Assembly: GCA_902578445.1 (NCBI GenBank) | Contig: CACHDC010000001.1 | Span: 1-64,000 of the forward strand | Length of the DNA: 64,000 bases | Direction: 5' to 3' | Source of the DNA: an uncultured Synechococcaceae cyanobacterium | GTDB lineage: Bacteria; Cyanobacteriota; Cyanobacteriia; PCC-6307; Cyanobiaceae | The notes under the pieces: model-generated | What the model saw: only the letters and a program-made list of their open reading frames with translations | Told to the model about the DNA's origin: nothing | Database searches by the model: none | Part shown: in pieces, positions 20,892-45,125 of the stretch | How positions within the stretch are numbered: the first letter of the stretch is position 1 | Layout of the letters: each line of letters starts with the position of its first letter | Made by a program: the position numbers and the translations under genes

Positions 20892-21278
20892 TTATTCTAA
20901 ATATTCAAAAAGTGTTGATAATCTTTGAGGATCTTTTAAAAATAGCCAGCCTACTAGAGTTTCAAAACCTGTCGCTCTAGAGTATATGGTAGGGTCTGAA
21001 GACTTTGGATATCTCTTTGTTTTATTTCTAGCACGCCTAATTAAATCCATTTCATTTGAATTTAATAAATGTTCAATTTGACTTAATGATTTTGACTGAG
21101 ATTTTGCTTTTACTTCATTTACCACAGATAAGTGGAGATCTTTCGATTTCAAAGGAAAATGAACATGCCTTAGTCTTTGATGAAGCTCCCATACCGAATC
21201 TCCAAGCCAAGCTAGTTGAATAACTCCTATATCATCGGGAGATCCATATGGAACCAAGTTTTGAATCCAATAATTCAA
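20892..21278 (-). CDS. mrnC: Mini-ribonuclease III-like protein
   Basis: AWLGDSVWELHQRLRH, RARNKTKRYP. Confidence 0.85.
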   Translation of the reverse strand: MNYWIQNLVPYGSPDDIGVIQLAWLGDSVWELHQRLRHVHFPLKSKDLHLSVVNEVKAKSQSKSLSQIEHLLNSNEMDLIRRARNKTKRYPKSSDPTIYSRATGFETLVGWLFLKDPQRLSTLFEYLE

Positions 21279-21640
21279 TTTTTTAAATAATTTAATGCAT
21301 CTTCAAGGCTTGACTTCAAGTTAAGAAAATCCCCTAAACGAACAAGTTTAATTGTTTGGGCCACTCTCGAATTACCAACAACAGAGAAACCAAGTTTAGA
21401 TTTTTTGCTTTCTTTAGCAGTCTGAACAAGAGCTCCAAGACCAGAAGAATCTAAAAAATCTATTTTTGTAAGATCAATAATAAATGGAAGCTCATTTCTT
21501 AAATTATTAGCAACAAAATTCTTAAATTGTTTTTCTGAGAAAGCATCAAGTTGGCCTTTAAAAGTAAAAACAATAGTGTTTTTTTTAATCTCAAGGTTTC
21601 CTCTTAAAGAAACCGTTAACTTCTGGTAATCTTCTATGAT
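21275..21640 (-). CDS. STAS-domain anti-sigma factor antagonist-like protein; no ATG/GTG/TTG near the N-terminus (first codons ATC ATA)
   Basis: Manual translation: (I)IEDYQKLTVSLRGNLEIKKNTIVFTFKGQLDAFSEKQFKNFVANNLRNELPFIIDLTKIDFLDSSGLGALVQTAKESKKSKLGFSVVGNSRVAQTIKLVRLGDFLNLKSSLEDALNYLKN*; SD GGAGG at 21647-21651; absent from the supplied ORF track. Confidence 0.85.
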   Translation of the reverse strand: MIEDYQKLTVSLRGNLEIKKNTIVFTFKGQLDAFSEKQFKNFVANNLRNELPFIIDLTKIDFLDSSGLGALVQTAKESKKSKLGFSVVGNSRVAQTIKLVRLGDFLNLKSSLEDALNYLKN

Positions 21641-21701
21641 CTAATACCTCCAAAAAATTAATATATCAAATGTAATTATCAAATCAAAAGAAAACAATAT
21701 G

Positions 21702-22844
21702 TCAACATCTTTCTAACATTAGAGAAACAAATTTTTTAAATAAATAATCTGAATCATGTGGGCCAGGCCCTGCTTCTGGATGGTATTGCACACTAAATAT
21801 TGGCTTATTATTAACTTCTAGGCCAGCCACAGTGTAATCGTTAAGGTTATAGTGGGTTATTCTAACTTTATCCTTCAAGAGAGAATCAGGATCAATAGCA
21901 AAACCATGATTCTGACTAGTTATCTCAATTTTATTATTTTCACCACAAGGGTGATTTAAACCACGATGTCCAAAAGGTAATTTATAAGTCGAACCTCCTA
22001 ATGCCAATCCAAATATTTGGTGGCCTAGGCAAATACCAAACATTGGTATTTCACCATATTCAATAAGTGATTTTGCTAACTTTATACCTTCAGAAACAGA
22101 AGAAGGGTCGCCTGGACCGTTTGAGAAAAATATACCATCGGGATTGTTGCATAGAACATCATTTAGAGAAGATGAAGAGGGCAAAACCAAAACATCACAA
22201 CCATGGGACACAAGTCTATTTAGAATTGAATTTTTAATTCCAAAATCAATTGCTACTATTTTTAATTTTTTAGAAGATTCTTCATAACTTTTTCTTAAAT
22301 CAAAAATTGTTTGTGTATGACTATTCCATAAATATTGTTGCTTTGTTGAAACTACTTTTGATAAATTTAATCCTTTCATCTTTGGCGTATCATGAATTAT
22401 CTTTAAACAACTTTCAACGGTATTATCTTCAGAGGTAATAACTCCGTTCATCGAACCATTAGATCTTAAAATCTTAACAAGAGCTCTTGTGTCAATTCCA
22501 TAAAGACCTACTATATTTTTTTCAACCAACCATTGATTGAAATTCTTTTTAGATCTCCAATTGCTGTTATTCGATGAAAAATTTCTAACAATTATCCCTT
22601 TAACATTAATATTAGACTCTGAATCTTCAAAATTAATACCAGTATTTCCAATCTCAGGGTAAGTGAATGTTAATATCTGCCCGTAATAACTTGGATCAGT
22701 AATAACTTCTTGATAACCTGTCATTCCCGTATTAAACACTATTTCACCATTTGCTGTGCCAGAAGCACCAAAATGAAATCCAGGGAATACAATTCCATTA
22801 CTTAAAACTAATTTCGAGTTTTTCTTATATGGATTAATCGTCAT
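21702..22844 (-). CDS. carA: carbamoyl-phosphate synthase small subunit
   Basis: GTANGEIVFNTGMTGYQEVITDPSY, FGICLGHQIFGLALGG; start refined to MTINPY. Confidence 0.96.
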   Translation of the reverse strand: MTINPYKKNSKLVLSNGIVFPGFHFGASGTANGEIVFNTGMTGYQEVITDPSYYGQILTFTYPEIGNTGINFEDSESNINVKGIIVRNFSSNNSNWRSKKNFNQWLVEKNIVGLYGIDTRALVKILRSNGSMNGVITSEDNTVESCLKIIHDTPKMKGLNLSKVVSTKQQYLWNSHTQTIFDLRKSYEESSKKLKIVAIDFGIKNSILNRLVSHGCDVLVLPSSSSLNDVLCNNPDGIFFSNGPGDPSSVSEGIKLAKSLIEYGEIPMFGICLGHQIFGLALGGSTYKLPFGHRGLNHPCGENNKIEITSQNHGFAIDPDSLLKDKVRITHYNLNDYTVAGLEVNNKPIFSVQYHPEAGPGPHDSDYLFKKFVSLMLERC

Positions 22845-22855
22845 TTTGAAATAAA

Positions 22856-23890
22856 TTAATTTGCAGATAAATAATTTTTTAAGAGTAAAAACTTTTTCCA
22901 AGGATCACCTTGATTAATGGAACATAAAGCTTTATTAAATCCTTCATTTAAATCATCCTCAATTCCTGCTGCCCAAAGCACTAGAGCAGAATTCAAGGCA
23001 ACAACATAAACGTGAGATTTTTGTCCAGAACCATTTAAAACAGACTTTAATATTTCCTCATTAGACTCAAGATCAGAAACCATAAGATTTTCGTTAGCAA
23101 TATTATCAAGGTTAAAATCTGAGATATTTATTTCTGAAAACCGTAATTTACCATTTTCAACAAACACTAATTTATTTTCCCCTTGAAGAGAAGCTTCATC
23201 AAGGCCACCAGCACCATGAACGACTATTGCTCTATTCATACCCATTTTTAAAAGCGCGCTTCCCATAGGTTTTAAAAGATCCTCTGAAGCAACACCCAAA
23301 ACTTGAGCATTAGGTCTTAAAGGATTTACCAATGGTCCAAGTTGATTAAACACTGTCCTTATTCCAAGGGTCTTTCTTAATGGAGCAAGTTTTATTAAGG
23401 ATTTGTGCCAAGCAGGTGCGAACAAAAAAGTTATTCCAATTTCACTTACTGCCTTGATTACTTTTTCTAATGAACAATTTAAATTCAAACCAAGATTCAA
23501 CAAAACATCAGCAGACCCAACTTTCCCACTAGCACTTTTATTTCCGTGTTTAGCAATTTTTACTCCACAAGATGCAGCTACAAATGCTACTGCAGTTGAA
23601 ATATTAAATGTATTAGCTCCATCCCCTCCTGTTCCACAAGTATCTACCAAATACAAATTTGGTCTTGCTACTGGCAATTTGCAAACATTTAAGAGTTCCT
23701 CAGCCATCGAACTTAGTTCGACACCCGTACAGCTTTTAGCTCTCAAAGCACTCAAAAAAGCACCAGTTTCAACATCTGAAATTTCGTCATTAAGCCATCT
23801 TTGCATTAAGGATCTAGAAGTTAAATCATCAAGGTTCCTCCCCTTTAACAAATTATTTAGAATTTCAGCGTTTGATGGATTAGAAAACAT
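22856..23890 (-). CDS. trpD: anthranilate phosphoribosyltransferase
   Basis: [34 protein letters not shown]. Confidence 0.97.
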
Positions 23891-44554: not shown

Positions 44555-44728
44555 TTAAGCAGCCAATGATTGGTCATCTTTAGTTTCAATTTTATTTATA
44601 AGCTTCAAATCTATAGAATTAAATAAATGTTGCATAAGAAGAAAATCAAGTTCCCCTTTTAACAAATTAACATCGGATGAAAGTAGATCATCAACAAAAT
44701 CATCAAAAGTATCTGAAAGAGGATTCAC
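44555..44728 (-). CDS. small acidic hypothetical protein (57 aa, GTG start)
   Basis: MNPLSDTFDDFVDDLLSSDVNLLKGELDFLLMQHLFNSIDLKLINKIETKDDQSLAA*. Confidence 0.45.
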   Translation of the reverse strand: MNPLSDTFDDFVDDLLSSDVNLLKGELDFLLMQHLFNSIDLKLINKIETKDDQSLAA

Positions 44729-45125
44729 AATTAAAATTTATTTTTGTCATTATCGTCTCATTAAAAATAAAAGTCAACCAAAATTGAATATTAATTTTTG
44801 ATATTTTAAAAATTAATGAATAAAGACTAAAAATTTAAATAATAAATATAAATAAGCAAAATAATAGATTTAATATCAAGCTTAGGGTCTTTGAATTAAA
44901 TTTCATTTATCTAGCTTTTCTTATTTTTATATCTCTCCTGATAAGCATTATCAAAACGACCAAACACATATTTGCTAAATAGAAGTTTAAATAATTCATC
45001 ATCAAATCAATTAATTTATTTATAGCATGACTATTGATTTGCTAATTCGAAAAGAATCAAAAAATTTGAAGTGGCAATACATTTTTGATGGTAATCAAAG
45101 TTGATAATATAAATCCGATATAAAA

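Follow-up and report, generated by a model that had tools for sequence, protein, structure and literature searches.

On the minus strand of the window (the whole stretch of 64,000 nucleotides that was analyzed), an open frame lies between carA, encoding the small subunit of carbamoyl-phosphate synthase (21702-22901; its listed TTG start is a mechanical call), and mrnC, encoding mini-ribonuclease III (20892-21278; PF00636, E 4.5e-21). The frame (21278-21640) is bounded by TAG (21641-21643) on the side of carA, which ends at 21702, and by the TGA (21275-21277) that overlaps the TTG start of mrnC as TTGA, as had been recognized in the initial annotation. The STAS domain assigned to it there was borne out by the Pfam model PF01740 (E 9.2e-17; 61.2 bits against a cut-off of 22.6) and by TIGR00377 (59.5 against a cut-off of 53.45). 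The lack of any ATG, GTG or TTG near the N-terminus was likewise confirmed: the earliest such codon in frame is 92 codons in from the opening ATC, within the domain itself, and hence no canonical start can give the STAS domain. A scan of the 64-kb window for other long free frames devoid of these three starts yielded one (44559-44798, plus strand; 80 codons), which bears no gene-like sign.

The coding sequence presented here runs from ATA (21635-21637) to the TGA, 120 codons and stop (21275-21637, minus strand), and its product is the ortholog of the anti-sigma-factor antagonist Ssr1600. A Shine-Dalgarno (SD) core GGAGG (21647-21651) is positioned 9 nt before the ATA and 6 nt before the preceding ATC (21638-21640), exactly as first read from the sequence. 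The ATC is not the start itself; its last two bases form the conserved di-pyrimidine at -2,-1. The TAG directly upstream of it rules out a farther-upstream start in the source strain. No signal of RNA structure was obtained at the start (z -1.35 for the window sequence and -0.04 for the related locus L144). The hexamer TACATT (21669-21674) is at best suggestive of a -10 box, TAYAHT being found in many families at a distance of 36-38 nt upstream of the start. Of the TAYAHT-like boxes in this region (21660-21674), the genus also has one 28 nt before the start, and the gene may possess its own promoter with a short leader.

Evidence for the start codon

Of the two candidates originally put forward for initiation, AUC and AUA, only the latter withstood comparison with relatives. 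Eighty of these were retrieved from genome contigs for a first comparison, and the anatomy of the gene was identical in all 80. All 121 distinct sequences of the genus have ATA at the start position, which is more than chance or sequencing error would produce. Only two of the 120 codon columns of the genus alignment were invariant, this ATA and one GAT; the other isoleucine columns vary, with mostly ATT and exchanges. In some relatives the preceding ATC becomes AAC, ACC, GTC or AAA, and since the ATA is never replaced there, the start is placed at 21635-21637 and the coding sequence at 21275-21637. AUC was rejected as a start; it is not invariant, and its -2,-1 context is wrong. One locus (L128, genome G365) has two codons deleted from the otherwise invariant N-terminal LTVSLRG, where it reads QKVSLRG.

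Outside the genus, the equivalent codon is ATA, ATT or ATC (ATH in the DNA, AUH in the mRNA), and the signals that surround it are those of a start. An SD core precedes ATH in all 213 distinct loci, as GGAGG or AGGAGG in 168 of them, with a spacing of mostly 5 or 8-9 nt. Among the 33 long ATG ORFs of the window, for which the start calls are mechanical, a single one is preceded by GGAGG. A di-pyrimidine at -2,-1, described as a feature of translation starts in cyanobacteria (PMC5622118), was present at 207 of 214 loci (120 of 122 in the genus and 87 of 92 others), and its position favors ATH over the preceding ATC. These signals weigh against the proposal that initiation occurs at variable upstream canonical codons, with the conserved ATH being an internal isoleucine. 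An in-frame canonical codon does exist somewhere upstream in 59 of the 213 loci, at scattered positions, and a mechanical ORF list provides the f31 locus L303 with an ATG 15 codons upstream. However, ATG, GTG and TTG are absent between the nearest upstream in-frame stop and ATH in 154 of the 213 loci, where the stops refute such initiation, and in Prochlorococcus a stop often lies just one codon ahead of ATA, with the frame upstream shifted by indels. Upstream initiation is thus considered extremely improbable.

A second proposal would dispense with a proper start codon altogether, by coupling translation of the STAS gene to that of carA or by ribosomes reading on from it. In its favor, all family loci have carA at a distance of approximately 60 nt upstream, and the carA C-terminal motif was detected upstream at all 211 of these. 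Among 50 loci of other families, the motif was found at 16, a lower bound given that carA was recognized by motif; ATH is nonetheless present at the 34 that lack it within 400 nt, and also at L303, where the upstream gene is unrelated. The variation of the upstream gene between groups, with the start unchanged, points to ATH as the start, and dependence on carA is regarded as highly improbable. A frameshift from the upstream TTG contained in TTGGAGG was also contemplated and rejected; that frame stops after approximately 20 codons, and neither the TTG nor its spacing is retained. Use of the AUH start is strongly supported by these comparisons of sequence.

Distribution across the Cyanobacteriia

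The suggestion in the initial annotation that alignment might reveal ATG at this position elsewhere has a nearly uniformly negative answer. In other genera of the same family the start position is ATA, ATC or ATT, and in approximately 30 further families ATT, ATC or ATA follows GGAGG. Every one of the 224 good genomes in a class sample has an ortholog, and none was identified in the listed members of the phylum from other classes. In a motif scan of 390 class genomes, 373 contained the ATH form; with ATG, GTG or TTG substituted in the motif, the scan retrieved one true ortholog (ATG, in genome G540) together with ten other matches that proved unrelated on inspection. The genomes without a motif match included four ATT orthologs with a diverged motif, one ortholog with CTG (G724), and one cut by a contig end; the remainder were mostly incomplete or had only weak paralogs. 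One near-complete class genome, G675, yielded just a weak STAS paralog and may have lost the gene.

Over 215 distinct loci, the start position reads ATA in 139, ATT in 45, ATC in 27, ATG in one and CTG in one, with a near-start insertion reading ATC in two; because the samples of loci and genomes overlap, these start-codon counts cannot be treated as independent. At least 13 changes at the third base of the start were counted on a quick tree, two of them to G, indicating that A, C and T interchange and that G is avoided. Near-cognate initiation, as it was first suspected, is consequently upheld by the AUH pattern across the class, and the two conditions named at the time as fatal to it, a strain-specific degraded start or an indel masking an upstream one, are both ruled out by hundreds of genomes. 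As judged from the genomes compared, the unusual AUA/AUU/AUC start is shared by approximately 99% of the species examined and the protein is present in nearly all cyanobacteria; AUH is retained across the class, with AUG almost never accepted. The loci of G540 (L305, ATG) and G724 (L304, CTG), the sole exceptions found, show that the AUH rule can be broken and represent natural tests of it.

The antagonist and its partners

Twenty residues reported for Ssr1600 of Synechocystis PCC 6803 (L24, D25, F27, S28, R33, G43, F56-S60, L62, G63, V66, Q67, K70, L93, V94, L96, and F99) map onto the orthologs when shifted by a constant 6 positions, with agreement at 20 of 20 in the best loci and at 19 of 20 in L237, from an f31 genome. 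This constancy identifies Ssr1600 as the ortholog, its published residue 1 corresponding, by the numbering, to Leu7 here, and the published numbering implies that the annotated start of Ssr1600 lies six codons too late. The main text of the study on Ssr1600 (PMC12329169) makes no mention of a non-canonical start. That the protein might genuinely begin at the Leu7 codon, which is TTG in some species, would suit the numbering, with all 20 residues fitting Leu7 as residue 1. However, of 122 genus loci, 92 encode Leu7 by TTA and 25 by CTA, and only 21 of 92 others have TTG; the SD sequence would be more than 20 nt off, and the residues preceding Leu7 are conserved as protein. A start at Leu7 is therefore very unlikely, and the AUH codon is retained as the start in what follows.

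According to the main text of the same study, Ssr1600 is an anti-sigma-factor antagonist that controls RNAP-SigC and is a phosphorylation target of Slr1861 and PmgA; its binding to an anti-sigma factor, released by phosphorylation, was demonstrated with Slr1861 (PMC12329169). Synechocystis grows more slowly in high CO2 when Ssr1600 is raised, and a mutant is rescued by loss of the protein (PMC12329169); these effects indicate that dose matters. The window protein has the STAS domain together with a phosphorylatable serine in the pattern D-S-[ST]-G, as DSSG at residues 63-66, of which Ser64-Ser65 (21443-21448) correspond to S59/S60 of Ssr1600, which are phosphorylated (PMC12329169). An RsbW-like kinase and a PP2C phosphatase are encoded in the same genome (G000:C55:2466-2735 and G000:C18:18177-18758, respectively), and each Prochlorococcus genome searched has one HATPase_c_2 (RsbW-like) kinase and one SpoIIE phosphatase. 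Sequence matches in the PDB were to antagonists of the SpoIIAA type. The STAS fold and the DSSG phosphorylation motif are common to the present protein and the SpoIIAA/RsbV antagonists; unlike those, the STAS gene here has a non-AUG start and no adjoining kinase gene.

Non-canonical starts and a possible translational input

To our knowledge, conserved starts other than AUG, GUG and UUG are known for only a handful of bacterial genes. In Escherichia coli, infC begins with AUU, by which initiation factor IF3 regulates its own synthesis. The STAS gene resembles infC in having an AUH codon with an SD sequence and differs from it in that the gene so equipped is not that of IF3. The sigR gene of Streptomyces starts at GTC with AGGAGGTG and is under IF3 repression; replacing its start by a canonical one upsets the balance of the switch (PMC5472188). 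Like the STAS gene, sigR combines a non-canonical start with a strong extended SD sequence, belongs to a sigma-factor switch, is conserved in its clade and has been misannotated (PMC5472188). However, sigR encodes a sigma factor and has GTC or GTT within Streptomyces, whereas the present gene encodes an anti-sigma antagonist and has AUA, AUU or AUC class-wide; moreover, repression by IF3 was demonstrated for sigR (PMC5472188), while IF3 control of the cyanobacterial gene would follow by analogy. Proteogenomics of Nostoc PCC 7120 provided peptide support for ATA and ATT starts, and these may or may not include that of the STAS gene, the genes being unnamed in the main text (PMC8557916). A literature search that reached few subscription papers found no earlier report of the conserved AUH start. 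With a conserved start other than ATG, GTG or TTG and an SD core at 213 of 213 loci, the STAS start is of the infC/sigR kind by design, and, by analogy, may be so in its response to IF3.

The cyanobacterial infC loci checked (L201-L230) have canonical start candidates, and the infC gene of Prochlorococcus has ATG, with no visible SD sequence, at 15 of 15 uncut loci. On the basis of these loci, the AUU-infC loop is not retained in Prochlorococcus; with infC lacking AUU in cyanobacteria, IF3 sensitivity would here act on behalf of the sigma switch rather than for homeostasis of IF3.

We consider it likely that the AUH start, with its strong SD sequence, holds the antagonist at low abundance compared with its partners while its output tracks IF3 and the 30S subunit, giving a SigC-type switch a translational input. 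The SD sequence would position the 30S subunit on the AUH codon (AUA here), which initiator fMet-tRNA would decode despite a mismatch at the third position. Selection would act against a full-strength start because initiation at AUH would be discriminated by IF3. The weak start would hold the antagonist below its kinase/anti-sigma partners, a scarcity that is only relative given that Ssr1600 is visible on western blots. Antagonist output would then vary with IF3/30S status in the cell, and the partner switch would gain this input beside phosphorylation. A wider form of the proposal is entertained with somewhat less than even confidence, namely that an IF3-sensitive AUH start sets the antagonist of the SigC switch class-wide, relaying initiation-factor/30S status to sigma choice, and that this sensor replaced the AUU loop of infC.

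Alternatively, the weak start may simply fix protein abundance at a low and constant value, with no sensing of IF3 or of the state of translation. Non-AUG starts lower initiation and the dose of the ortholog matters, and such a role is compatible with every observation made here. However, a weak SD sequence or a GTG or TTG start would suffice for it, yet a strong SD sequence with AUH, which is the infC/sigR design, has been retained throughout; this simpler role is therefore judged unlikely, if still a serious contender. Beside the proposed input from IF3, the gene presents a conserved weak start in a regulator linked to carbon and light acclimation, class-wide, with its third base freely exchanged among A, C and T and G almost absent, and so offers a clean test of the idea that selection maintains weak start codons for control. 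Gene callers that accept only three start codons miss the gene or misplace its N-terminus, and this apparently extends to the numbering of the Ssr1600 constructs.

The overlap between the STAS stop and the mrnC TTG (TTGA; 21274-21278) was retained at 98 of 98 related loci, and its invariance in the genus makes it plausible that translation of mrnC in Prochlorococcus is coupled at this site. At L303 there is a gap instead, and mrnC begins with an ATG of its own.
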